Positions 16,201-42,971 of a DNA stretch of 64,000 nt are shown piece by piece. The translations under genes were made by a program, and so were the position numbers. Source of the DNA: Acinetobacter sp. ANC 4862 (GTDB taxonomy: Bacteria; Pseudomonadota; Gammaproteobacteria; Pseudomonadales; Moraxellaceae); contig NZ_SJXH01000012.1 in assembly GCF_004336635.1 (NCBI RefSeq), forward strand, positions 1-64,000, read 5' to 3'. Every line of letters starts with the position of its first letter. The stretch's first letter is position 1. The notes under the pieces were generated by a model. It had not been told where the DNA came from. It did no database searches and was given only the letters and a program-made list of their open reading frames with translations.

Positions 16201-17329
16201 TACTAAAAAATTGGTAATGTTTGTTGGCGGAGGCTATGACATAGGCTATGAAAACACAACCTATGATCAAAGTACTACTACAGGTGGTGGCGCAGGCGTC
16301 TATATGTTTAGTGCTGGCGGTGATGATCAAGGTAATTTGTTATGGTGGACCAGTGCCAATGCTACAGCAGCTAAAGGAGCAGAAGCATATACTGATGCCA
16401 GCGCATCTGCGATTAATATGAAATATAGTGTGGTCAGTCAGATTAATGCGATTGATCGTGATAATGATGGACTTGTTGATAACTTATATTTTGGTGACTT
16501 AGGTGGCCAGGCCTTCCGTGTTGATATAAATAATGCTGCAATAGGTGATGATGCGAGTGCTAAAAAAGGCAATTTTGTTAAACGAGTTGTGCGCTTATAT
16601 AACGGTCATGTCAGTGGAGGTCTAAGTCCACGCTTCTATGAGATGCCAAGTTTCTCTGTACATGAAGGAGTAGATGGCATATTTGGTACGGTTGCTTTAA
16701 GTTCAGGCAATCGTAGTTCACCAATGGCAACTGCAACCAATAGTGCTAACGATGCAGTGTATGTGATTTATGATAATGATGTCGCGCGTACCGATTTATA
16801 TAGCGATATAACATTAAGAATCCCAACCTCTGTAGACGCAGGGGATGCTTTAGATACAATGATACTTGCAAGTGGTGTAGCACAAAAAACAAATGCGACT
16901 TATAACCGTGGCTGGAAATATCAATATGCAACAACAGCTGGTCGTTATAAAGGCATGAATGAGATTTTTGCAGTAGATGGGATGCTTTATGTCAATGTGT
17001 ATGATCGAGATGGTACAGGCATTGGTAGTACTTGTACTGGTGGTGTGAATGGTGACTCCTATGTGTATCAGTTCTGTTTACCTACTGGAAAATGCGCTAA
17101 TAACTTCTATGCAACCGGGCAAACCACACCCAATCGAGTGAAAATCGGCGGTGGGATTTTAGGAACAGGTTTGGGGCAAGGTAGTGGTAACAGTGATCTG
17201 CAACGTTTAACGGTCAATCGCCCTACGACACAGGATTGTACAACTACGGAAAATAAAAATAAGCCCGAATGCCAACAATTTAATACAACTGCAAAACTTA
17301 GACAGTTGCGTTGGTATGAAACTCGATAA
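13259..17329 (+). CDS. pilY1: type IV pilus tip adhesin/assembly factor PilY1 (ComC)
   Basis: A large secreted protein (1356 residues) carried at the pilus tip; ComC in A. baylyi is required for DNA uptake. A Sec signal covers about the first 30 residues (ATQAS). A von Willebrand A-like region starts with the MIDAS motif D51-N-S53-G-S55. The C-terminal third is the PilY1 beta-propeller with a calcium loop DRDNDGLVD near residue 1065, the type of site that controls extension and retraction in Pseudomonas. The C-terminus carries several cysteines. It follows pilX by 17 bases. Its stop codon lies 13 bases before the comE ATG. Sequence between the vWA and propeller parts is Asn/Thr/Ser-rich, typical for a surface protein. 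Confidence 0.92.
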   Translation: MKKINQRNMLSVSVSMMMTLAVCQSVATQASDIEIYKTGFTPNPVVMFALDNSGSMSVNGRRRAFDLKDSMQAVLLGEGSIRPARNIRAGLSTFESPPWYPIKNGTTELYKTTVHPATAEVDSDTTIKVPRRDAGYIASPAQMLDDRIVYPSTRKDLFPSNGDVIFKDGNNQPVKTNGDVSIDNDTKKVYIRFQVDVPRGATINAAYLELRNSTDYGSNKLKVRVAKHNDLYAVNPQITSLQTFVSGATSKAIASSVNNDYLNKIFTNATTQRAIDIYRNSYKNDNIGNPMYVYSMSVKSEMENLIRDNTNWCGMGDIIFELSRDNSKNYKFYADQEDRVNPKLYIDWTLSDNAIRNNNCMFTDTKRSSAQKITNLGDVGIAGSMIARQSMNLQVQRLLTDTATPSNALYAETVAYMLGNSTKPLTNSNPANTSIDFALSGLTTSAGSDIKYISPIKSVSDYLANSTNTNNAAAYLKEQQCGQHGIYFLTDGDAEFNMRGATNTNDKLFASSMGWSSISCNNFDTCAQTMARGLLKASGYTANNRSLKIKTSTVGFDYTGASLSNWATAGGGRYTAVNLSGSNSAKQGIVDSISAFLDDIFNTDIPELVVTGSPTLPKDSLNPLRIQPYGYYAEFTPRPQDLTQLWIGNLNKYHVVSGELYNIAKSTRLINTDGSLNVNAHGIWTNGMRGQLPLGVSTNAKSETVANRTIYTNREITGTAAPFGVSELNSLKKVNVESLFGTGATALFANDPDKNYWLNLLGYNVGATETDITSNNLATKPELRQVGAVMHSTPILLTQRGKITVNSAGTLDTTNRDDYLLFGSTQGLLHVVDVGTGVEKFAFAPHEMMENQKAAFLSGTSSTLGSANLFYGVDAPWTAYTQYVSKADGELTVNSSDRTSDGSTNTDLSLKGLQWVYGGLRMGGRSYYALDLSDMEKPSLKFHINPNAAVTTTGAADTTNALSYMGQSWSKPTIAYVKFGGTKKLVMFVGGGYDIGYENTTYDQSTTTGGGAGVYMFSAGGDDQGNLLWWTSANATAAKGAEAYTDASASAINMKYSVVSQINAIDRDNDGLVDNLYFGDLGGQAFRVDINNAAIGDDASAKKGNFVKRVVRLYNGHVSGGLSPRFYEMPSFSVHEGVDGIFGTVALSSGNRSSPMATATNSANDAVYVIYDNDVARTDLYSDITLRIPTSVDAGDALDTMILASGVAQKTNATYNRGWKYQYATTAGRYKGMNEIFAVDGMLYVNVYDRDGTGIGSTCTGGVNGDSYVYQFCLPTGKCANNFYATGQTTPNRVKIGGGILGTGLGQGSGNSDLQRLTVNRPTTQDCTTTENKNKPECQQFNTTAKLRQLRWYETR

Positions 17330-17342
17330 AGGGGAAAAGGTC

Positions 17343-17936
17343 ATGATTAGTCAAAAAGGCTTTACCCTAATTGAGTTAATGATAACGATTGTTATAGTCG
17401 CTATATTGGCAGCTATAGCTTATCCGAGTTATACCCAATATATGGAAAGACGGGATTTAGCAATTGCAAAACAGGAAGCCTTGAGGATTTCTGCTGAGCT
17501 TGAACGGTTTAAATCGAAAAATTTTAGCTACAAAGGTTTTGATGCTAGTTATTTATATACTTATGAAGGTGTAGATAGCGATGGAAATGCGATAGCAGCA
17601 AATTATTATGATAAAACCACTGGTAAATTGTCTTTGCCATTAGGTGCTACAACATCAACATCTAAATATACTTTAACTTTGGTTGATGGAGGTACAGGAC
17701 ATAAACCTTTAACAATTACTAAAAACAACGATGGGACTGAGACGGCAGATTCTGCCGGTGTGAATGGTTTAAGTTGGATGATATCGGTAGAACGGGTAAA
17801 AGATAGTTCCGGTGAACCCAAACAGCCCCGAAATTATGATCTATTATTGAGTAATACAGGACTACGCTGTATGACGAAAGTAAAAGATGTTGTTATAAGC
17901 TATACAGGGTGTGGTGGGTATGGGGAGGCATGGTAA
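17343..17936 (+). CDS. comE: PilE-like minor pilin ComE
   Basis: Type IV pilin-like protein with leader MISQKG/FTLIELMITIVIV, Gly-1 and Glu+5, followed by the helix motif AYPSYTQYMERRDLA. The start at 17343 follows AAAGGGGAAAAGG; an in-frame ATG at 17316 inside pilY1 would add residues not seen in pilin leaders. The 197 residues include a C-terminal cysteine pair (LRC...TGC). In A. baylyi comE and comF are the last genes of this operon. It overlaps comF through TAATG. Confidence 0.85.
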   Translation: MISQKGFTLIELMITIVIVAILAAIAYPSYTQYMERRDLAIAKQEALRISAELERFKSKNFSYKGFDASYLYTYEGVDSDGNAIAANYYDKTTGKLSLPLGATTSTSKYTLTLVDGGTGHKPLTITKNNDGTETADSAGVNGLSWMISVERVKDSSGEPKQPRNYDLLLSNTGLRCMTKVKDVVISYTGCGGYGEAW

Positions 17937-18358
17937 TGAATAAAAATAAGGGATTTACGTTAATCGAGTTAATGATTGTAGTAGCAATTATTGCTATTTT
18001 AGCTGCAATTGCTTACCCATCTTATACTCAATATAAAATTCGTACTAACCGCGCTGATGTACAAAGTGAAATGATGCAAATTGCACAGCGATTACAGAGC
18101 TACCATATTATTAATCATAATTATACGAGTGCAACCCTTAATGGAACAACTAGCAAGGATTATCCCGCATCTAATCCTGTTTATAGCATTACACTTGTTC
18201 CTACTGGTCAAACCTATACATTAACTGCAGCACCTAAATCAGGCACTGCTCAGGTAGGCAATGGAAGTGTGATTCTCGACAGCCAAGGTCAAAAATGTTG
18301 GACTAAGACCTTAGTAGCTTGTACACCTTCTCAAACTTCAAACTGGGACGGCCGTTAA
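17936..18358 (+). CDS. comF: PilE-like minor pilin ComF
   Basis: Last gene of the minor pilin operon. Leader MNKNKG/FTLIELMIVVAII and AAIAYPSYTQYKIRTNRAD, the classic PilE N-terminal helix. It is 140 residues long with a C-terminal cysteine pair (KCW...VACTPS). GGGGAGG at 17922-17928 precedes the ATG at 17936, which shares its A with the comE stop. Very similar in its first 30 residues to ComE, so the pair arose by duplication, but the globular domains differ. Confidence 0.86.
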   Translation: MNKNKGFTLIELMIVVAIIAILAAIAYPSYTQYKIRTNRADVQSEMMQIAQRLQSYHIINHNYTSATLNGTTSKDYPASNPVYSITLVPTGQTYTLTAAPKSGTAQVGNGSVILDSQGQKCWTKTLVACTPSQTSNWDGR

Positions 18359-20268: not shown

Positions 20269-20643
20269 ATGAGTGGTAAACATCCTTTAGTTCAAATTAT
20301 TGAAAATGCGCAATTAAAAACTGATATCCCAGCTTTTGCACCAGGTGATACAGTTATTGTATCTGTAAAAGTAAAAGAGGGCGATCGCGAACGTCTTCAG
20401 GCTTTTGAAGGCGTTGTAATCGCAATCAAAAACCGTGGTTTAAACTCTGCGTTCACAGTACGTAAAATTTCTAGCGGTGTTGGTGTTGAGCGTGTATTCC
20501 AAACTCACTCTCCAATCGTTGCTAAAATCGAAGTTAAACGTCGTGGTGACGTGCGTCGTGCTAAACTTTACTACCTACGCGAATTGTCTGGTAAAGCTGC
20601 ACGTATTCGTGAAAAATTACCAGCTCGTAAAGTTAAAGCTTAA
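20269..20643 (+). CDS. rplS: 50S ribosomal protein L19
   Basis: Large-subunit protein at the 30S-50S interface. Typical motifs: [18 protein letters not shown] near 20-38, [20 protein letters not shown] block near 45-60 (here [16 protein letters not shown]), ERVFQTHSP near 78, [18 protein letters not shown] near 100. Length 124 is slightly longer than usual because of a basic tail. GGAGA upstream of the ATG. Confidence 0.97.
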
Positions 20644-20712: not shown

Positions 20713-21684
20713 TTATAAACCTTGCAGTTTTAAACGATTGGCATGTTGACGGTAAATTGCCACAGGGTCTTGTGCAAATATGCCTTGTATCCCAAAGAAG
20801 TGGTTAATTTCATCAAAGTGATTGTGTTTATAATCTTGACGAATCACTTGGCCGTAGCGACCACTACACAGGGAGACAAGGCCATCATGGTCTTTGCTTT
20901 TTAATAAAGTTGTCCCTAAAGCTACAATTGAGGTATCGATCACATCTAAAGGATTGGTAATTTGTTGATTGCCCATCCAGGAATAATGATAAATACCATC
21001 AGCAGTCTGTTTTTGCCCCTGACTATTACAATCTTGGGGAATGGCTGCTGAACCATATTTCGCATTAAATGCCATAATACCCGTGGTGCTTAGAGATTGC
21101 ATCGAGCCTTCATAATCAACGCTAAGTTTTGGATTCGACTGGATCAGCGCGATACTTTTACCCAATAAACCAAAAACCACTTCTGCAATCGGATCGAGAA
21201 ATTTACTTTCTACCATCACATCGGCCAGTTTTGTGCCTTTCATTGCTCCTGCGACCGCCGTCATGGAGGCAACTTTCTCAGGTGCAACACCTTCAATATA
21301 TTGAATGGTCGGGCCACCGTGGCTATGACCAATCAAATTCACTTTTTTCTTGCCGGTGAGGGCCATAACTTCATCGACTTGCTGTAAAAGCTGCTCACCA
21401 CGAACTTCAGTCGATTCCACCGCAGACATTTCCGCTGCAAAAACCGTCGCACCATTACGTGCCAAGTCTGGCAAAATTTGATACCAATAATCTAAGCCCA
21501 ACATTTGTGTGCCAATACGCGAAAAGCCTAAGCCGAAACCATGTGCCATCACTAACGGGTATTGGGTGGTTGCATAATTCGATACAGCTTTTGCCTGATA
21601 TTGGGTTAAGCCGGCAGCTTGCGCAGGTAAATGCACGAATGCAACGCTGCTCAGTGCAGCGAGGACGATGTGTTTAAGTTGCAT
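20713..21684 (-). CDS. secreted triacylglycerol lipase, family I (third intact copy)
   Basis: Family I.1/I.2-type lipase of 323 residues hydrolysing triacylglycerols outside the cell. Signal peptide to about residue 23 (LPAQA/A). Oxyanion motif AHGFGLGF near 48, nucleophile Ser121 in GHSHG, aspartate in HDGLV and histidine in NHFDEIN near the C-terminus; two cysteines (QDCNS, SLCSG) likely form the family disulphide. Such lipases fold with the help of a membrane-anchored foldase and leave by the type II system; the foldase gene lies 2.8 kb upstream on the same strand. It is the last member of a tandem family here, preceded by a truncated relative. Substrate range is not predictable. Confidence 0.9.
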   Translation of the reverse strand: MQLKHIVLAALSSVAFVHLPAQAAGLTQYQAKAVSNYATTQYPLVMAHGFGLGFSRIGTQMLGLDYWYQILPDLARNGATVFAAEMSAVESTEVRGEQLLQQVDEVMALTGKKKVNLIGHSHGGPTIQYIEGVAPEKVASMTAVAGAMKGTKLADVMVESKFLDPIAEVVFGLLGKSIALIQSNPKLSVDYEGSMQSLSTTGIMAFNAKYGSAAIPQDCNSQGQKQTADGIYHYSWMGNQQITNPLDVIDTSIVALGTTLLKSKDHDGLVSLCSGRYGQVIRQDYKHNHFDEINHFFGIQGIFAQDPVAIYRQHANRLKLQGL

Positions 21685-21857
21685 TGAATATCCTTGATTA
21701 TTTTTTTAACACTTTTATTTTTAGACAATTCATATTGTCAATATTGGGTGAATTAACAATTTTTAGTTTATAAATAAAGCAATAGAGGATGAGTGGTGAA
21801 TTTTGAAATCATCAGGATTCAAGATCAACAGATAGAGATTTTAGGTATTTATTTTTA

Positions 21858-21886
21858 TTAAAAAGAACGATTTTCCGCTCTTTTTA
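21858..21886 (-). terminator. terminator after the lipase pseudogene
   Basis: AAAGAACG / CGCTCTTT stem with one G-U pair, with TTTTT on the minus strand. It closes the pseudogene unit. Confidence 0.6.
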
Positions 21887-21898
21887 GCAAGGTGGAAC

Positions 21899-22140
21899 TT
21901 ATAAACCTTCTAGTTTTAAACGGTTGGCATGTTGGCGTTACAAGGTGACAGGATCTTGTGCAAATACACCTATAATTCCAAAGAAATGATTCACTTCATC
22001 AAAGGGATTATGCTTATAGTCTTGACGAATAATTTGCCCATAACGACCGCTACATAAGGGCAGAGCCCCATCATTTTGGCATGGGTCAATTGTAATGTCG
22101 TCATGCCAGATAGGATCAATGCGAGAAAGAATTTATTCAT
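21899..22140 (-). pseudogene. lipase pseudogene: signal peptide fused to C-terminus by internal deletion
   Basis: Reading from 22140 the DNA encodes a normal lipase signal peptide (MNKFFLALILSGMTTLQLTH, then Ala). It then jumps, within a few bases, to the C-terminal part of the same family: DGALPLCSGRYGQ, RQDYKHNPFDEVNHFFG, VFAQDPV, RQHANRLKLEGL. The middle of the protein, including the GHSHG serine, is gone (about 230 codons by comparison with its neighbours). The junction also changes frame, and an in-frame TAA replaces the Tyr codon before RQHANRLK. It is thus dead three ways. It is most like the copy at 20713-21684. Confidence 0.92.
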
Positions 22141-22187
22141 AAGTGCTCTGAAGAATCTAAACAAAATGATTTTTTATTTTTAAGTGC

Positions 22188-22223
22188 TAAAAAGGGATTT
22201 ATACAGTGAGTGATAAATCCCTT
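22188..22223 (-). terminator. terminator after the second lipase gene
   Basis: AAGGGATTTAT / ATAAATCCCTT perfect 11-bp stem with a 10-base loop; TTTTTA follows on the minus strand. It isolates the upstream lipase from the pseudogene. Confidence 0.85.
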
Positions 22224-22228
22224 ATTTT

Positions 22229-23194
22229 TTATAAACCTTGCTGTTTTAAGCGGTTGGCATGCTGACGATAGACATCGACCGGATCGGGTGCAAATAACGA
22301 TTTCAGACCGAGTACCTGATTCACTTCATCTAAATGGTTCCAGTTGTAATTATCACGGATGGTTTTACCAAACTTGGCGCTGCAACGGGATACCAGGCCA
22401 TCATTTTCTTTACCACCATTAATCAACAAACTGGTGACCTTTAAAGCACCGTCAGGATCCAGTAAATTGGTCACTGTACCGATACCGGTAAAGGAATAGT
22501 TATAAATACCCTGATCTAGGAACTTGCCTTCTCCACATGCTGTGCTTGGCATGCCTATGGGGAAATTGGCATTAAACTGTGCAGAGCCTTCAAGAGTTAA
22601 ACTTTTACCACCGGCTAAAGAATCATGCGGAAAGCTTTGTGGGTCAAGACCTTGTGCCCAGGTAATCGCTTTGGAAACAAAATTGATGACACCTATGAGT
22701 GGGCCCTCAAGAGCCGTACCTTCAGCAGACAAGATCAAGTCCGCTACAGGCGAGCCTTTATGTGGCGCACCTACTCCCGTCATTGAGGCAACTTTACCCG
22801 GTAAGGCTGCACCAACGTAGCGAATGGTTGGACCTCCATGCGAGTGGCCAATCAGATTGACTTTTTCTGCCCCGGTCAATGCCAGAATCTCTTCGACTTG
22901 TCGTGCCAGTTGTTCACCACGAATTTCAGATGAATTAAATGGCGATACACGGGTTGCCCAGACGTTGGCACCGTTACGGGCCAAGTCCGGCAGAATTTGA
23001 TACCAGTAGTCGAGACCAAACTGGTCGGTTCCTACAGTGATAAAACCAGCCATCCCATGACTAAAAACAATCGGGTATTTGGTTTTTGCATAGCTTGAGG
23101 TTGCTTTTCCCGTGACTTGGGTAGCGTTGCCTGCTTGTACTTGGCTAAAAGCACTGAGTGACATTAAGCCAGCAATGAAGAGTCCGTATTTCAT
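22229..23194 (-). CDS. secreted triacylglycerol lipase, family I (second copy)
   Basis: A 321-residue lipase with signal peptide (about 1-21, SQVQA/G). Oxyanion motif SHGMAGF near 45, nucleophile Ser118 in GHSHG, aspartate in NDGLV, histidine in NHLDEVN, disulphide cysteines in TACGE and SRCSA. The region after the nucleophile is longest-diverged from the other copies (AEGTALEGPL), the part that forms the lid, so chain-length preference may differ. GC content is higher than the third copy. Separated from its neighbours by AT-rich gaps of about 90 and 200 bases and followed by its own terminator. Confidence 0.9.
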   Translation of the reverse strand: MKYGLFIAGLMSLSAFSQVQAGNATQVTGKATSSYAKTKYPIVFSHGMAGFITVGTDQFGLDYWYQILPDLARNGANVWATRVSPFNSSEIRGEQLARQVEEILALTGAEKVNLIGHSHGGPTIRYVGAALPGKVASMTGVGAPHKGSPVADLILSAEGTALEGPLIGVINFVSKAITWAQGLDPQSFPHDSLAGGKSLTLEGSAQFNANFPIGMPSTACGEGKFLDQGIYNYSFTGIGTVTNLLDPDGALKVTSLLINGGKENDGLVSRCSAKFGKTIRDNYNWNHLDEVNQVLGLKSLFAPDPVDVYRQHANRLKQQGL

Positions 23195-23394
23195 ATTGAG
23201 TACTCAAAATATTATTGTTTTAAACCAGTTGTTTTATTAGACAATTTAAATTGTCAAAATTTAGTATTGAATATAAGTGGTCAGATTTCTAAATTTAACA
23301 GACCAATGCAATATAGAGTTGTAACAAGGTATGAATATGAAAATGCCCATAAAAATAGGGTCTTTATGTGCATGGATTTGTTTAGAAGCTCGGT
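23195..23394. other. AT-rich spacer between lipase genes
   Basis: Two hundred bases without a gene. It contains the region upstream of the second lipase and downstream of the first, with only a weak hairpin near 23342-23360. No start with lipase similarity is present, so it is not another relic. Confidence 0.5.
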
Positions 23395-24378
23395 TTATAA
23401 ACCCTTCATTTTTAGACGGTTGGCATGTTGTCTAAACAGGGCCACTGGATCAGGAGCAAACATCCCTTTTAAACCAAACATCATGTTGGCAAGGTCAGTA
23501 TGATTGAGGTTGTAATTATCACGGATGACTTGACCGATATGTGAACTACAGCGGGCAACCATACCATCATTGTCTTTGTTGCCATAAGACAATGGCCCGA
23601 GTTGCATCAGAATGCTATCAATGTCCAGAAGGTTGGTGGTTTGCGCAGTTCCACCCCAAGAATAGTAGTAGATTTCCTTATCCACTTCCGCACCGCTCTT
23701 GTTACAGTCAGAAGCTAAAGCAGCTGTTGGGAAGCGTTTATTGAAGTTTGCCGATTCTACTTCGGTCAATGACTTCATCGAAGCATCAAAGTTCACCGGA
23801 ATATCCGTATTGGCTTGAGCCCAGGTCATCAGTGGCCCAATGATATATTGTCCCAAAATATTGAAGGCAGTACGGCTAAGCGTATTGTTTTGAATATCAT
23901 CGGCCACTTTAGAACCGCGATATGTTCCACCCACGCCAGTCACCGATGCGATGTATTCGGGTCTCACTGCCGCTACGTATTGTACGGTTGGACCACCATG
24001 ACTGTGACCAATCAGGTTGACTTTATCCTGACCTGTAATCGCGAGCACTTCTTCAACCTGAGCAACCAGTTGTTCACCACGAAACTCAGTAGTATTGGCA
24101 GGGGATAACTGTGCTGCAAATACGGTTGAACCATTACGCGCCATATCGGGCAAAATTTGATACCAATAATCAATGTTGAAACTATCATTTCCGATACGTG
24201 ACCAGCCCAGCCAGCCATGGGTCATGACAATGGGGTATTTGGTTTTTGCATAGTCAGATTTGACCGTTTCTTTGATTTGCAAAATGCCTTTTGCTGCTTG
24301 TGTTTCAGCGGTTAAACCCATGGTCAGGATCGTCATTACCGCAAGCATGATCACTTTTTTGTTTTTTAAAGTTTTCAT
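23395..24378 (-). CDS. lipA: secreted triacylglycerol lipase, family I (foldase-proximal copy)
   Basis: The copy directly after the foldase gene, corresponding to LipA of the lipB-lipA pair of A. baylyi. Start at ATG 24378; a TTG one codon upstream is possible. Signal peptide to about residue 28 (ETQA/A). Oxyanion motif THGWLGW near 54, Ser126 in GHSHG, aspartate in NDGMV, histidine in NHTDLAN, disulphide cysteines in SDCNK and ARCSS. At 327 residues it is of usual size. Separated from lifO by 88 bases, which would allow joint transcription. The C-terminal motif DPV..RQHANRLK is shared with every copy in the array. Confidence 0.92.
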   Translation of the reverse strand: MKTLKNKKVIMLAVMTILTMGLTAETQAAKGILQIKETVKSDYAKTKYPIVMTHGWLGWSRIGNDSFNIDYWYQILPDMARNGSTVFAAQLSPANTTEFRGEQLVAQVEEVLAITGQDKVNLIGHSHGGPTVQYVAAVRPEYIASVTGVGGTYRGSKVADDIQNNTLSRTAFNILGQYIIGPLMTWAQANTDIPVNFDASMKSLTEVESANFNKRFPTAALASDCNKSGAEVDKEIYYYSWGGTAQTTNLLDIDSILMQLGPLSYGNKDNDGMVARCSSHIGQVIRDNYNLNHTDLANMMFGLKGMFAPDPVALFRQHANRLKMKGL

Positions 24379-24466
24379 CAACTTTTCCTTAAATATTTTT
24401 GTTTTTATTTATATAAGTACATAAATCAGATGATCAATCTAGTCACCTGATGGAGCTACATTGCGA

Positions 24467-25495
24467 TTACTCGCCATAGGGTAATTTTCCTCCCTGATCA
24501 TGAACTGATTCAAACGTTCCTACCCGGAGTTGTTCTTCTGGTTTATTAAAATGCTGCATCCTTAATTGTTGAACGGCTTTTTGTTTGGCATCCTCACTCA
24601 TGCCACTTTTCATAATGTTGTCGCGTTCTTTCAGATAGCCATCGACCTTGTTTTTCCAGTCGCGGCGTTGTCCATCTAAGCTTTCTAGACGCTGTGTGGC
24701 TTCAGGGCCGACCAAATTCATCCGCATCTGATGAATTTCTTCCGTAGAACCACCCCGTGCTTTAATGTCTGCAGTCAGTTTGCGTAAGTCTTCGAGTTTG
24801 TTGAGCTGCTCTAAATTTTCTTTCCAGTCTTGGGGTAATTGATTGAACAAATCTTTTAATTTTTGTGCTTTTTGCGCTTCAGTTAAGCTCTTGTCATCCA
24901 TGACCATCATGCGACTTAAGGTGTATTCATGATAAGTATCTTCGGTACCGAATAAGCCTTCAATTTCGTAATCTGAGAAAAGCTGTTTACGCAGATTTTT
25001 CATACTGGCAAAGATGCTTTGATAATATTTAGGATCTTCTTTATCAATATTCGGTGCTTGTAGATCACCGAGTTTTTCACGGTAATCGATATAGCGATTC
25101 CACAGATCTAGAATTTGTGCGAGGGCAGGCGCTTTATACGTTTGCTGGATGTAAGCCTTAAAATCATTTTTAATTTGCTTGAGATCTTTTTCCCCATACT
25201 GGGTAATGAAATATTCAAAACAGTTACGTGTTTGCTCATTCACAATTAAACGGTTGGCAGCATCGAGACTCAACTGACAGTTCACTTCAGTGTCCTGTTG
25301 GCTTTTACTCATAAAAGCCCTGCCTTGAACTACATTTGCTGGCGTGTTTTCAGTTAAGCTATTAGCTTGAGGATCAACAGTCTGTGCTGCACGTGTTTTT
25401 TCTGCACTCGATTGCGAGGGCGCTAACCAAAATAATAGTGCGCCGATAGCCACAATAATAAGCGCCAAAATAATCCATAACTTATATTTTCGCAT
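24467..25495 (-). CDS. lifO: lipase-specific foldase LifO (lipase chaperone)
   Basis: Inner-membrane-anchored periplasmic steric chaperone that folds family I lipases before type II secretion. One N-terminal membrane helix (about 7-25), a variable Gln/Ala-rich linker, then the chaperone domain starting near residue 75. The foldase motif, RxxFDYxLSxxGE in the family, reads RNCFEYFITQYGE near 90-102. The rest is strongly charged and helical, as in known foldase structures that clamp the lipase. It is the only foldase gene here while three intact lipases follow, so it may serve several clients. It comes first in the unit, reversed relative to Pseudomonas lipA-lipB but as in A. baylyi. Confidence 0.9.
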   Translation of the reverse strand: MRKYKLWIILALIIVAIGALLFWLAPSQSSAEKTRAAQTVDPQANSLTENTPANVVQGRAFMSKSQQDTEVNCQLSLDAANRLIVNEQTRNCFEYFITQYGEKDLKQIKNDFKAYIQQTYKAPALAQILDLWNRYIDYREKLGDLQAPNIDKEDPKYYQSIFASMKNLRKQLFSDYEIEGLFGTEDTYHEYTLSRMMVMDDKSLTEAQKAQKLKDLFNQLPQDWKENLEQLNKLEDLRKLTADIKARGGSTEEIHQMRMNLVGPEATQRLESLDGQRRDWKNKVDGYLKERDNIMKSGMSEDAKQKAVQQLRMQHFNKPEEQLRVGTFESVHDQGGKLPYGE

Positions 25496-25648: not shown

Positions 25649-26557
25649 ATGAAAAAGACTTCACCTAAGATTCAACGCCGGAATATTAGCGGCGTGTTTT
25701 TACTTAATAAGCCTTTGGGTATTAGTTCTAATGGCGCTTTACAGCGAGTGCGTGGATTATATCGGGCGCAAAAAGGTGGTCATACCGGTGCTTTAGACCC
25801 TTTAGCTTCCGGATTGTTGCCGATTTGTCTGGGTGAAGCGACTAAGTTTTCTCACTATTTGTTAGATTCGATCAAGCGTTATCAAACCACCATCTATTTA
25901 GGTCATAGCACCACGACGGGTGATGTCGAAGGTGAGCTGTTGTTGGAGCAAGCTGTTCCGGTGCTAACGGAAGAAAAAATTCAGCAGGTTCTGGCAAGCT
26001 TTACGGGGGATATTCAGCAAGTTCCGCCGATGTATTCCGCTTTGAAGAAAGAAGGGCGTCCGTTGTATGAGTTGGCGCGTCAAGGCATTGAAATTGAACG
26101 TGAAGCGCGGCCCATTACCATTGAGGCGATTGAGTTATTGTCCTTTACTGAAAATAGTCTGACTTTAGATATTACCTGTTCTAAAGGCACTTATATTCGG
26201 GTCTTGGGTGAAGATATTGCCAAAGCCCTCGGCACTTTTGGACATCTGACCTATCTGCACCGGATTAAAACGGGTCAGTTTGACCTGATTCCCGAATACA
26301 CCATTGAGTATCTGGAAAGTTTGACTGAGCAGGAGCGTGAAGCTTTGTTGCTGCCTGTTTATGCCCCGGTCGATCATTTTCCAAAAGTGCAGGCGCCGGA
26401 AGGGCGTGCGGAATACTTTAGCCGCGGCATGGAAAGTAATATTGAACATGAGGTCGAAGCACAGGTTCTGGTTTTTGATGGTGAAAAATGTCTGGGCTTG
26501 GCAGAGATTACTGACCGCAAGCGTCTGGTACCGAAACGTGTACTGAATCTCGAATAG
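25649..26557 (+). CDS. truB: tRNA pseudouridine55 synthase
   Basis: Makes pseudouridine 55 in the T-loop of all elongator tRNAs. [14 protein letters not shown] near residue 14 and [16 protein letters not shown] near 45-60, holding the catalytic aspartate, are diagnostic; [13 protein letters not shown] and the [15 protein letters not shown] block follow. The 302 residues include the C-terminal PUA-like region. Divergent from lifO. Confidence 0.96.
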
Positions 26558-27501: not shown

Positions 27502-28044
27502 CTAAATACCAAATAAATCATTACAGTAATCTTTAAACAATTTATCAATATCTTTAACTCTAAACTTATTGCGAATCATTTTTACTCGTGACCACATTTT
27601 TTCTATAGGATTTAAGTCCGGGCTATATTTAGGAAGCCACACAATGTAATGGCCTGCACAGCGTATCAACTCCTGAAGCCTTTTTCCTTTGTGAAAGGTG
27701 GCATTATCCATAATCAATACACTGGTTTCTTTCAGCTTCGGCAATAAATCCTGTTCAATCCAGCATTCAAATACCTCAGTGTTCACTGAACAATCAAATA
27801 CTCCAACTGTAAGCAATCTATTTTCGATTAATGCACCAATCGCATTGCTACAATTTTTTAACTGCCAGTTAAATTCAGCTTCAGCTCGCGCTCCTTTAGG
27901 GCTATAACTATGCGATCTCGTACTTTCGCTTTGAAAACCACTTTCATCGATATAAACCAGTGGTAATTGTTGTTCTAAACATTCAATCAAGTTCTGAAAT
28001 TGCCGACGTTGATTTTGATCTGCTTTAGGGTGCTTTAACGTCTT
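27502..28044 (-). CDS. IS630 transposase, ORFB (DDE catalytic part, reached by -1 frameshift)
   Basis: If the ribosome slips back one base on A7, the frame continues as KTLKHPKADQNQRRQF and then the DDE domain, giving a 279-residue fusion, the usual size of IS630 transposases. Catalytic acids: Asp in VYIDESGF, Asp in LIMDNATFHKG, Glu in SPDLNPIEKMW. The sequence KKTLKHPKAD across the join matches the uninterrupted linker of single-frame relatives, which supports programmed frameshifting. ORFB has no good start of its own apart from a TTG at 27990. Its stop codon lies within the left inverted repeat. Confidence 0.85.
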   Translation of the reverse strand, partial: KTLKHPKADQNQRRQFQNLIECLEQQLPLVYIDESGFQSESTRSHSYSPKGARAEAEFNWQLKNCSNAIGALIENRLLTVGVFDCSVNTEVFECWIEQDLLPKLKETSVLIMDNATFHKGKRLQELIRCAGHYIVWLPKYSPDLNPIEKMWSRVKMIRNKFRVKDIDKLFKDYCNDLFGI

Positions 28045-28340
28045 TTTTTACGCGATATTCCTGCGGCATGTAGCGCATTAAATACTGCATGTGTACTGAC
28101 ACCAAAACGTTCTGCCCGTTCACTGATGTAATCATCGGGATATTGTTCAACATCCTTCAATATTTGCTCTTTGCTAATTTTAGCTGGGCGACCAGGAATA
28201 GGTTTAGTTACAGTGGACTTTTTCCAATTCTGAATCGTCTGTATACAGACGTTAAAATGCTGTGCTGCTTTTCGCACAGACATTTTATCTCTAGCCATAA
28301 TTTCTATGACTTTGTCTTTAAAATCTTTTGAATATCCCAT
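28035..28340 (-). CDS. IS630 transposase, ORFA (helix-turn-helix part)
   Basis: The N-terminal half of the transposase, 101 residues, with two helix-turn-helix units: VRKAAQHFNVCIQTIQNWKK near 22-41 and SERAERFGVSTHAVFNALHA near 72-92. These bind the terminal repeats. The frame stops at TAA 28035-28037 shortly after the sequence CGT AAA AAA AGA (A7 at 28043-28049). By itself it has no catalytic domain and could act as a regulator of transposition. Confidence 0.88.
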   Translation of the reverse strand: MGYSKDFKDKVIEIMARDKMSVRKAAQHFNVCIQTIQNWKKSTVTKPIPGRPAKISKEQILKDVEQYPDDYISERAERFGVSTHAVFNALHAAGISRKKRR

Positions 28341-40811: not shown

Positions 40812-42971
40812 TTAATGATTTCTTGAAACACTGTCATTAACAATTCGTGGTGTAACAAAAATCAATAGCTCACGTTTATTATCAGACTTGATATCTTTAC
40901 GGAATAAACGACCTACGTAAGGAATATCACCCAAGAATGGCACCTTAGTTTGACCATTACGGGTTTCTTGTTCAAAAATACCACCGAGTACAACTGTCTC
41001 TCCATTATCTACCAGGACATTGGTATTGATTTGATTTTTATTAATCGTCAATTGACCTGTCGGTGTTGGATTTCCTGGAGTATCGCTGGTGATGTTGAGT
41101 AGCATTTGAACTTTACCATCAGGTGTAATACTTGGCGTTACATCCAAACTAAGTACAGCATCAATAAATTCAGTGGTTGAAACTGCATTTGCACCACCAC
41201 CTTCTGATGATTGATATGGAATTTGCGTACCTGATGAAACTTTGGCTGTTTGTTTGTCTGCAGTGAGGACTTTAGGTGTTGAAATCACTTCACCATAGCC
41301 GTCTGCTTGCAAGGCAGAAAGTTCTAGATCCAGCATAAAATCAGATAAGCTGATTAAACCAAAGGCAATTTTACCTGCTGCATTAGTTACGCCTAAATCC
41401 ACATTTAAGTTCTGTGGACGTTGAATCGTATATTTACCATCATCGTCAGGCGTTTTTAAATCCCATAAGGTTGTATCACTACCACCGACCAACAAATCAT
41501 TATTTTGAGCAATACCTTGCGACAAGATCCCCCACTTCACGCCCATTTCTTTACTAAACTCTGTTGAAGCTCGAACAATACGGGCTTCAACCATCACTTG
41601 TTTGACTGGAATATCTAGCAAGTCGACCATTTTCCGGACTTTATCTATATTCTGTGCCGTATCATTAATAATCAGCGTATTGGTACGCGCATCAACAGAT
41701 ATCGTGCCACGTGAACTTAATAAACTTTCATTAGAATTATTATTGTTACTACTATTGCCAGAATTAGAGTTATTTGAAGATTTTGTTTGGGTAATCAGTT
41801 TCTCAATATCCGTAACCTTTGCATAGCTTAGTTGCATATACTCGGTTTGCATTGGCGCCAATTTTACACTTTGCTCTATCGCCTTCGCCTGTTCTTCTTC
41901 TGCTTTAATTAATTCTGAAACAGGGGCAATCCAGATTACATTACCATTACGGCGTTTATCTAAATTCTTGGTTTTTAGAATAATATCTAATGCCTGATCC
42001 CAAGGTACATCCTTTAAGCGTAAAGTAATATTCCCTTGTACTGTATCAGCGGTCACCATATTGATTTCAGTGAAGTCTGCCAATAACTGGAGCACACGAC
42101 GTACTTCAATATCCTGAAAATCTAGAGAAATCTTTTTACCAGTATAACTATTGGCTGCTTTAGGTTTAAGCGGATTTTTATCTTCAGGTCGTTTTAAACT
42201 GATTGTAAGTTTATTGTCTGCCTGATATGCCATATATTCATAGCTACCAGAAGTCTGAATGGTAATTACCCCATTTCCACCATTATTATTTGCATCGATA
42301 GTAGAAACTGGCGTTGCAAAATCATTCACATTTAAACGACGCGCCAAATGTGCAGGAACTTTACTGCCTAAAGTACGTACAACAACTTTACTGCCTTGCT
42401 GCTGCACATCAACCTGTGTGTTTGTACCGAGCAAATCAATAACAACCTGCCCTTCACCCTGACCACCGCGCTGGAAGCCAATATTGGAAATTCCTTGGGT
42501 AGATTTTTGAGCCGCTACCTGCTGAGTAGCAAATGCATTACCCGCAGCTGAATTAATTTTTAAAATAAAAGTATTGCCTTCCACGCGTGTGGTAAAGGCA
42601 CCGGCATCCGCCAAATTCACCGTTAAACGTGAGCGTTGCGCATCAGAACTCACATCAACAGAACTGGCTTCTTTGGTTGCAACTGCAATGCTATTTTGCT
42701 TTAAATTTTGCTGTGCTTTATCAAAATCCAGAATCAGACGTGATGGCTGCTCTAACTGATAAGCTTGCGGCTGCGGAGGTAAGCCATTAAACATGACACG
42801 AATTTCTGTACCCTGACCTGCAATTTGCATAGGCACAATATTGGTAATACTGACTTGTGCATTGGCAACTTGCATTACTGCGATTGCAACCGCACCCATA
42901 GAAAATTGACGGAACAAATGGTTCATTGTATTGCCATCCCCAAATATAAAATCTTTCAAACTGTTATTCAT
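40812..42971 (-). CDS. pilQ: type IV pilus secretin PilQ
   Basis: Outer-membrane secretin that forms the gate for the pilus and for incoming DNA. After a signal region near residue 40 (VANAQV) come two AMIN domains (about 45-260) that bind peptidoglycan, an STN/N0 domain (ISLDFQDIEVRRVLQLLADF near 288), an N1 domain with an Asn/Ser-rich insert (SSNNSNSGNSSNNNNSNES near 408), and the secretin barrel ending VPFLGDIPYVGRLFR near 685. Start placed at ATG 42971, with AAAGGAAT before it; an upstream ATG in frame lies inside pilP. Last of pilMNOPQ. Confidence 0.94.
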   Translation of the reverse strand: MNNSLKDFIFGDGNTMNHLFRQFSMGAVAIAVMQVANAQVSITNIVPMQIAGQGTEIRVMFNGLPPQPQAYQLEQPSRLILDFDKAQQNLKQNSIAVATKEASSVDVSSDAQRSRLTVNLADAGAFTTRVEGNTFILKINSAAGNAFATQQVAAQKSTQGISNIGFQRGGQGEGQVVIDLLGTNTQVDVQQQGSKVVVRTLGSKVPAHLARRLNVNDFATPVSTIDANNNGGNGVITIQTSGSYEYMAYQADNKLTISLKRPEDKNPLKPKAANSYTGKKISLDFQDIEVRRVLQLLADFTEINMVTADTVQGNITLRLKDVPWDQALDIILKTKNLDKRRNGNVIWIAPVSELIKAEEEQAKAIEQSVKLAPMQTEYMQLSYAKVTDIEKLITQTKSSNNSNSGNSSNNNNSNESLLSSRGTISVDARTNTLIINDTAQNIDKVRKMVDLLDIPVKQVMVEARIVRASTEFSKEMGVKWGILSQGIAQNNDLLVGGSDTTLWDLKTPDDDGKYTIQRPQNLNVDLGVTNAAGKIAFGLISLSDFMLDLELSALQADGYGEVISTPKVLTADKQTAKVSSGTQIPYQSSEGGGANAVSTTEFIDAVLSLDVTPSITPDGKVQMLLNITSDTPGNPTPTGQLTINKNQINTNVLVDNGETVVLGGIFEQETRNGQTKVPFLGDIPYVGRLFRKDIKSDNKRELLIFVTPRIVNDSVSRNH

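Follow-up and report, generated by a model that had tools for sequence, protein, structure and literature searches.

Acinetobacter lipases have been studied as industrial enzymes. They have also been studied as substrates of type II secretion (PMC4713064). In that paper, A. baylyi ADP1 (ACIAD3308-3309) and A. nosocomialis M2 are each described as having a single lipB(lifO)-lipA pair, LipB is needed for the secretion of Acinetobacter LipA through the type II system, and in P. aeruginosa one foldase serves both LipA and LipC. Here we describe a locus of Acinetobacter sp. ANC 4862, contained in a stretch of 64,000 nucleotides (contig NZ_SJXH01000012.1, positions 1 to 64,000; hereafter the window), in which one gene for the lipase-specific foldase LifO is accompanied by three intact lipase genes, named L1, L2 and L3, and by one broken lipase copy, the relic. 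In what follows, G000 is this source genome and the other G numbers are the Acinetobacter genomes compared with it.

Open frames and alignments place lifO, L1, L2, the relic and L3, in that order, on the minus strand of the truB–rplS interval. They bear out the initial annotation of this DNA, which had proposed one lifO, three intact lipases and one broken copy on a single strand; its premise that A. baylyi-type loci have a single lifO-lipA pair agrees with PMC4713064. The reading that we consider probable is that of a locus of the LifO-dependent type, in which old lipase lineages have been sorted by loss, decay and interspecies recombination, and in which L2 and L3 stand under a candidate TetR-type operator. 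According to this model, one LifO would fold three old and divergent lipases in the periplasm, and the type II secretion system would then export the folded enzymes. L1 would ride on the lifO transcript, while L2 and L3 would have promoters of their own under a common palindromic operator, predicted to be bound by a TetR-type regulator encoded elsewhere. Loss, pseudogene decay and interspecies recombination would have left the species of the group with differing selections from a shared pool of lineages.

Foldase, lipases and their distribution in the genus

The lifO product matches PF03280 (Lipase_chap) with 187 bits against a cut-off of 25.7 (E 4.7e-55), and shows a hydrophobic stretch at about residues 6-25, as judged by eye. 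With the NCBIfam equivalogs its best score is 465.3 bits for a cut-off of 542, all six subgroup models remaining below cut-off. A comparison with the PDB, run on LifO and L2, gave 9g8u_B as the best sequence match of the former (360 bits) and 9g8u_A as that of the latter (E 1e-139, 468.6 bits). L1, L2 and L3 are full-length open frames with pairwise identities of 45-49%, and all three score above the cut-off of the alpha/beta hydrolase family PF00561. In their alignment, the serine of the GHSHGG motif and the presumed catalytic Asp and His are identical, as are a presumed calcium-site Asp pair (D247, D291) and a Cys pair (C219, C273; L3 numbering); the catalytic, calcium-site and disulfide roles of these invariant columns are assumed by analogy with P. 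aeruginosa LipA. The identity among the three proteins is 61-63% over columns 51-155 of the alignment, compared to 25-31% over columns 156-225, which we take to be the lid and its flank, and the different lid regions reported in the initial annotation are thus borne out. The triad, the calcium and cysteine residues and the adjacent PF03280 foldase gene are traits expected of LifO-dependent lipases (family I.1/I.2).

No second LipA relative was found in G000 outside the array (E<=1e-3), and no second LifO was found in that genome (E<=0.01). These data support the presence of one foldase gene beside several divergent lipases of the secreted type, as had been put forward. The type II secretin GspD is encoded in G000, above its curated cut-off. 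A second secretin match, at 40827-41780 of the window on the minus strand, falls under the GspD cut-off and is perhaps a pilus secretin.

The genus survey covered 175 Acinetobacter genomes. A LipA relative was found in 146 of them and LifO in 146, the same genomes according to the listed handles, and with the thresholds used the same 29 genomes lack both proteins. The neighbourhood of lifO was examined in 143 of the 146 LifO-bearing genomes, G000 included, with G008, G094 and G121 being the LifO-bearing genomes outside this part of the survey. The gene order truB-lifO-lipase(s)-rplS recurs among the relatives. Specifically, 1, 2, 3, 4, 5 and 6 intact lipases are found at the locus in 59, 43, 15, 8, 1 and 1 of 127 genomes, respectively, and the presence of at least two copies is ordinary (68/127). 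Because copy number at the truB-lifO-rplS interval varies in the genus, from 1 to 6, the array is not a fixed block. Broken copies occur in up to 17 genomes, G000 counted and one contig-cut case apart; beside the 255 intact genes, 33 lipase pieces that are broken or cut were excluded, the one in G131 being truncated by a contig end. In 16 of the 143 genomes, the regions examined hold only an arrangement in which the lipase precedes LifO (the second LifO matches of these genomes lie outside the survey). In this other type of locus, examined in 22 cases, LifO is about 30-34% identical and truB and rplS are not nearby. In G122, two facing foldase-lipase pairs lie between rplS and truB, with one lipase of the L1 type and one that is 68% identical to L2.

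The survey bears on the possibility that L2 or L3 folds without LifO and simply lies next to it. LifO-independent lipases of family I.1 occur in Proteus, and the PDB entries 4gw3, 4gxn and 4hs9, presumably of this Proteus kind, do match L2, although less strongly than 9g8u and 1ex9 do. Against such independence stand the retention of the two cysteines and of the calcium-site residues, the lack of both proteins in the same 29 genomes, and the finding that L2-type and L3-type genes each occur as the sole lipase next to a LifO (G018, G024). We consider it quite improbable, and a foldase shared by the three lipases is the reading that we retain.

Origin of the lipase copies

A tree was built from the 255 intact lipases, including the 22 that belong to the lipase-before-LifO arrangement. 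The clade containing L1 comprises 48 genes and 48 genomes (support 1.0), that containing L2 70 genes and 66 genomes (support 0.92), and that containing L3 16 genes and 15 genomes (support 0.94). None of the three G000 lipases has its nearest relative in its own genome: the closest to L1 and to L2 are found in G042 (92.0% and 90.7% identity) and the closest to L3 in G160 (98.5%). The same holds for the genus, since among the 174 lipases of the 68 multi-copy genomes a single one, in G157, is most identical to a lipase of its own genome (77%), and the median within-genome identity is 48% over 161 pairs. By sequence comparison, L1, L2 and L3 of G000 are old trans-species lineages and not local duplicates.

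The initial annotation had seen in this locus an array expanding by repeated tandem duplication and divergence. As a rival reading, this would be a recent and continuing local process accompanied by fast divergence of the lids. The head-to-tail paralogues on one strand together with the relic speak for it, as do the range of copy number in the genus and the likely younger pairs of G157 (77%), G139 (88.7%) and G103 (75%). However, L1, L2 and L3 are 45-49% alike, yet reach 98.5% (L3) and 91-92% (L1 and L2) identity with lipases of other species, only 1 of 174 lipases is closest to another one of its own genome, and the relic is common to relatives. The count of 1 in 174 led us to reject recent duplication in situ as the origin of the G000 array; for this genome it is largely refuted, and we hold it very unlikely. 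Elsewhere in the genus, local duplication is seen (G157, G139), and the G139 and G103 pairs suggest that younger duplicates exist. In the G139 pair, the closest of the 161, both members have an equal or nearer relative in other genomes.

The relic begins like a signal peptide and then continues, in a different frame, with some 59 codons of a lipase tail that contain a stop. A broken copy of the same lineage, termed R, lies after L2 with the same leader also in G161 (A. terrestris ANC 4471) and G127. The R copies of G161 and G127 have an early stop in common; that of G000 has lost its middle, has a broken frame and carries a stop in the tail. On this comparison, the relic is the decay of a pseudogene lineage R common to G000, G161 and G127. 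In addition, twelve close genomes, among which five lineages occur (type X, L1, L2, R and L3), carry six distinct sets of intact lineages, or eight when broken copies are counted: for example, X-L2-L3 in G160, X only in G102, X-L1 in G108, the same pair plus a broken L3 in G111, and L1-L2 in G042.

The trees of truB, lifO and rplS+trmD group G000 with G160, G161, G127 and G102 at modest bootstrap values (67, 74 and 79), and the L2 tree unites G000 with G042 and G106 (80/98, 83/99). In the stretch that starts upstream of L2 and ends near base 104 of the gene, 76 of the 81 informative sites are like those of the sisters G161 and G127. Beyond this position, 44 of 146 sites are sister-like and the rest are like G042 (A. 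kookii ANC 4667), until a run of about 20 sites at the end of L2 reverts to the sister type. The breakpoint has a max-chi2 of 84.8, a value reached in 0 of 1000 permutations; a separate test with G160 as sister gave 0 of 500. A weaker breakpoint was found in L1 (5 of 500 permutations). The lifO control showed no breakpoint, its observed value being reached in 275 of 500 and 214 of 500 permutations. In conclusion, the L2 promoter, leader and tail do not share their ancestry with the body of the gene.

The mosaic structure of L2, the weaker breakpoint in L1 and the grouping of G000, G042 and G106 in the L2 tree would also suit a history in which the truB-rplS interval took up whole lipase cassettes horizontally, through homologous recombination of the flanking DNA, in place of ancestral duplication followed by loss. 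The L3 of G111 points the same way, being 90% identical in DNA where lifO is 79%. On the other hand, the approximately unbiased (AU) test does not reject the species grouping for L2 (p 0.087-0.159 in the tests on this gene), its p for placing L1 with the group of G042 is 0.06, and loss alone explains the pattern of presence if the ancestor held all lineages. Cassette gain is, in our judgement, a real possibility that falls somewhat short of an even chance; the sorting of old lineages by loss, decay and recombination is the account that we carry forward.

A candidate operator and its predicted regulator

The palindrome GACAAT-N4-ATTGTC is present before both L2 and L3. The 3.3 Mb genome of G000 contains exactly four such sites, and none of the reversed pattern. 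The third exact site is in the divergent promoter between the genes of an SDR dehydrogenase and of a TetR-type regulator (G000:C15:45621-48636), a locus adjoining a response-regulator frame that is phoB-like by eye. The fourth is located 21 nt ahead of a Polyketide_cyc2 gene (G000:C56:27575-30590), whose product has a lipid-transport type of fold (SRPBCC clan). The regulator, encoded at G000:C15:47256-47963, scores 27.5 bits with TetR_N (cut-off 24) and carries the palindrome in its own divergent promoter, as in a TetR-type protein with its own operator. Its 15 matches in NCBIfam are all far under the cut-offs (MtrR, 42.4 of 280 bits; FasR, 38.4 of 330 bits), so that none of these models assigns it to a named regulator family.

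The L2 site is kept within one mismatch in eight of nine aligned genomes, G000 counted, and is lost in G106; the L3 site is kept in G160. When sites with at most 2 mismatches were counted within 130 nt upstream, the operator was found before 30 of 70 L2-clade, 5 of 16 L3-clade and 0 of 48 L1-clade genes, with 0 for the reversed control in all sets. A search with a different pattern found it upstream of none of 149 lifO genes. The TetR-type regulator was found in 152 of the 175 genomes. Its promoter was examined in 50 of these 152 genomes, G000 included: the site is exact in 46 and departs by at most one base in every one of the 50, whereas the reversed control never has fewer than three mismatches; the arms are kept and the middle four bases vary. 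The motif TTGACAATNNNNATTGTC is present in 147 of the 175 genomes, compared to 5 matches of the reversed control in the whole set. Regulator and motif occur together in 146 genomes, the regulator alone in 6, the motif alone in 1 and neither in 22 (Fisher p 1.7e-21), an association that is partly circular because tetR itself bears a site, that ignores relatedness, and for which three tetR-negative genomes were deduced by subtraction. Among the lipase-bearing genomes, the regulator is missing from two, G026 and G112, neither of which has such a site.

Twenty further sites, picked by us among the matches listed outside the tetR and lipase loci, all lie at most 106 nt before a gene. The genes are of the SRPBCC type (9), dienelactone-hydrolase type (3), SDR (3), amidase (2), FMN oxidoreductase (1), FMO-like oxidoreductase (1) and an unassigned family (1), with Pfam applied to six of them. 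Nine of these 20 sites, in relatives, precede the same Polyketide_cyc2 (SRPBCC-type) gene as in G000. We predict that the TetR-type regulator controls L2 and L3, and we read the set of targets as a putative lipid- and ester-related regulon into which these two lipases are wired.

The palindrome might instead be bound by a different regulator, or be a chance pair of -35 boxes, given that TTGACA is the sigma-70 -35 consensus and that the co-occurrence of tetR and motif is partly circular. Nevertheless, conserved arms around four variable bases, exact sites in 46 of 50 tetR promoters with a reversed control that never comes closer than three mismatches, the position of all 20 picked sites before genes of few families, and the scarcity of the reversed pattern (0 in G000, 5 in 175 genomes) make this alternative unlikely, and we keep to an operator of the TetR-type regulator.

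As for transcription units, hairpins follow L2, the relic and L3, the fold after L1 is weak (z -1.7), and the gap between lifO and L1 contains no clear terminator (z -1.8). Therefore, L1, which starts 85 nt downstream of lifO and is without operator, is probably co-transcribed with lifO, and L2 and L3 are probably transcribed separately. The claim of the initial annotation that several genes have their own terminators holds for L2, the relic and L3, the last sharing its hairpin with rplS, and is weak for L1. A simple terminator scan (loop limit 3-8) did not list these hairpins, and its yield was not above chance; promoter and terminator consensus scans gave no excess over shuffled sequence.

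Several results weigh against the reading that we favour. The operator was not found before 40 of 70 L2-clade and 11 of 16 L3-clade genes, and it does occur before 2 of the 34 genes that complete the larger clade around L2, as well as before 5 of the other 87. A one-mismatch scan of G000 was near background, with 11 sites compared to 7 for the control, and the consensus scan listed no sigma-70-like promoter at L2 or L3. On the side of the lineages, AU tests on the whole of L2 reject neither the species grouping (p 0.159) nor G000 with G160 (p 0.087), and the case for exchange thus rests on the breakpoint tests. In addition, the pairing of these two genomes is rejected on rplS+trmD (p 0.005) and found with truB, so that the flanks are not of a single history. 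Finally, fairly close within-genome pairs exist elsewhere (88.7% in G139, 77% in G157, 75% in G103), and duplication or acquisition is still required to explain how the lineages first arose.

A more far-reaching proposal, which we advance tentatively and at slightly less than even odds, is that a genus-wide TetR regulon with the operator TTGACAAT-N4-ATTGTCAA takes in the L2 and L3 lineages and excludes the foldase and L1. The locus would then act as a fixed expression-and-folding socket exchanging lipase bodies between species, because recombination would swap the bodies and leave operator, leader and terminator in place.

Layout of the locus and comparison with known systems

The features of the locus are collected in the table.

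Table. Features of the truB–rplS interval in the window and the evidence for each.
Feature	Position	Strand	Evidence and remarks
truB, conserved left flank	25649-26557	+	PF01509; gene order kept in relatives
lifO, lipase-specific foldase	24467-25495	-	PF03280; PDB 9g8u_B and 2es4_D matches
Lipase L1	23395-24381	-	Open frame, alignment; start TTG 24381 or ATG 24378
Palindrome GACAATTTAAATTGTC ahead of L2, candidate TetR operator	23240-23255		
Lipase L2	22229-23194	-	Open frame, alignment, PDB match; mosaic, body A. kookii-like
Intrinsic terminator 3' of L2	22175-22228	-	Fold z -5.1, then U-run
Relic, lineage R lipase pseudogene	21899-22140	-	Middle deleted, frame broken, stop in tail
Terminator 3' of relic	21840-21898	-	Fold z -3.2 (folded as 21840-21902)
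Palindrome GACAATATGAATTGTC (lipase strand) ahead of L3, candidate TetR operator	21724-21739		
Lipase L3	20713-21684	-	Open frame, alignment; 98.5% identity in G160 (A. terrae ANC 4282)
Hairpin usable by L3 and rplS as terminator	20645-20712		Fold z -6.7
rplS, conserved right flank	20269-20643	+	Own sequence; order kept in relatives by tblastn

Two neighbouring groups of frames were also recorded. IS630-type transposase frames (DDE_3, HTH_Tnp_IS630) are located near the array, beside tauE, at 27502-28340 of the window on the minus strand. Directly before rpsP-rimM-trmD-rplS, at 17316-18358 on the plus strand, there are two frames with prepilin-like N-termini, as judged by eye.

With a candidate regulator and a defined operator, the way in which L2 and L3 are controlled is open to direct test, and the mosaic L2 illustrates how lipase specificity could change with promoter, leader and foldase pairing left as they are. 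Fatty-acid repression of lipA in BD413 appears in the title of a reference (Kok 1996) cited in the review PMC12134079, and the main text of that review contains no occurrence of 'TetR'. The operator need not explain the BD413 case, because most lipases of other lineages are without it. Among the matches listed, which were titles and abstract starts with few subscription papers covered, none dealt with an array of several lipases at this locus or with the operator, and novelty in print is not established.

Judged from the sequences, the multi-lipase locus appears to be a variant of the known foldase-lipase locus, of which the regulatory and evolutionary detail is new. The regulator can be set beside the models of the TetR-family proteins MtrR, FasR and Bacillus FadR, with TetR_N above cut-off and weak matches to the models themselves. 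The 9g8u complex, the top PDB match of both L2 and LifO, represents one lipase-foldase pair. As in A. baylyi ADP1 and A. nosocomialis M2 (PMC4713064), the foldase gene is upstream of the lipase; unlike those loci, which have one lipase, the present one has three and a relic, with L2 and L3 under a candidate operator of their own. A parallel for one foldase acting on several lipases, as LifO would do here, is P. aeruginosa with LipA and LipC (PMC4713064); there, however, LipC is encoded about 2 Mb away, whereas in Acinetobacter sp. ANC 4862 all the candidate clients lie in one array.

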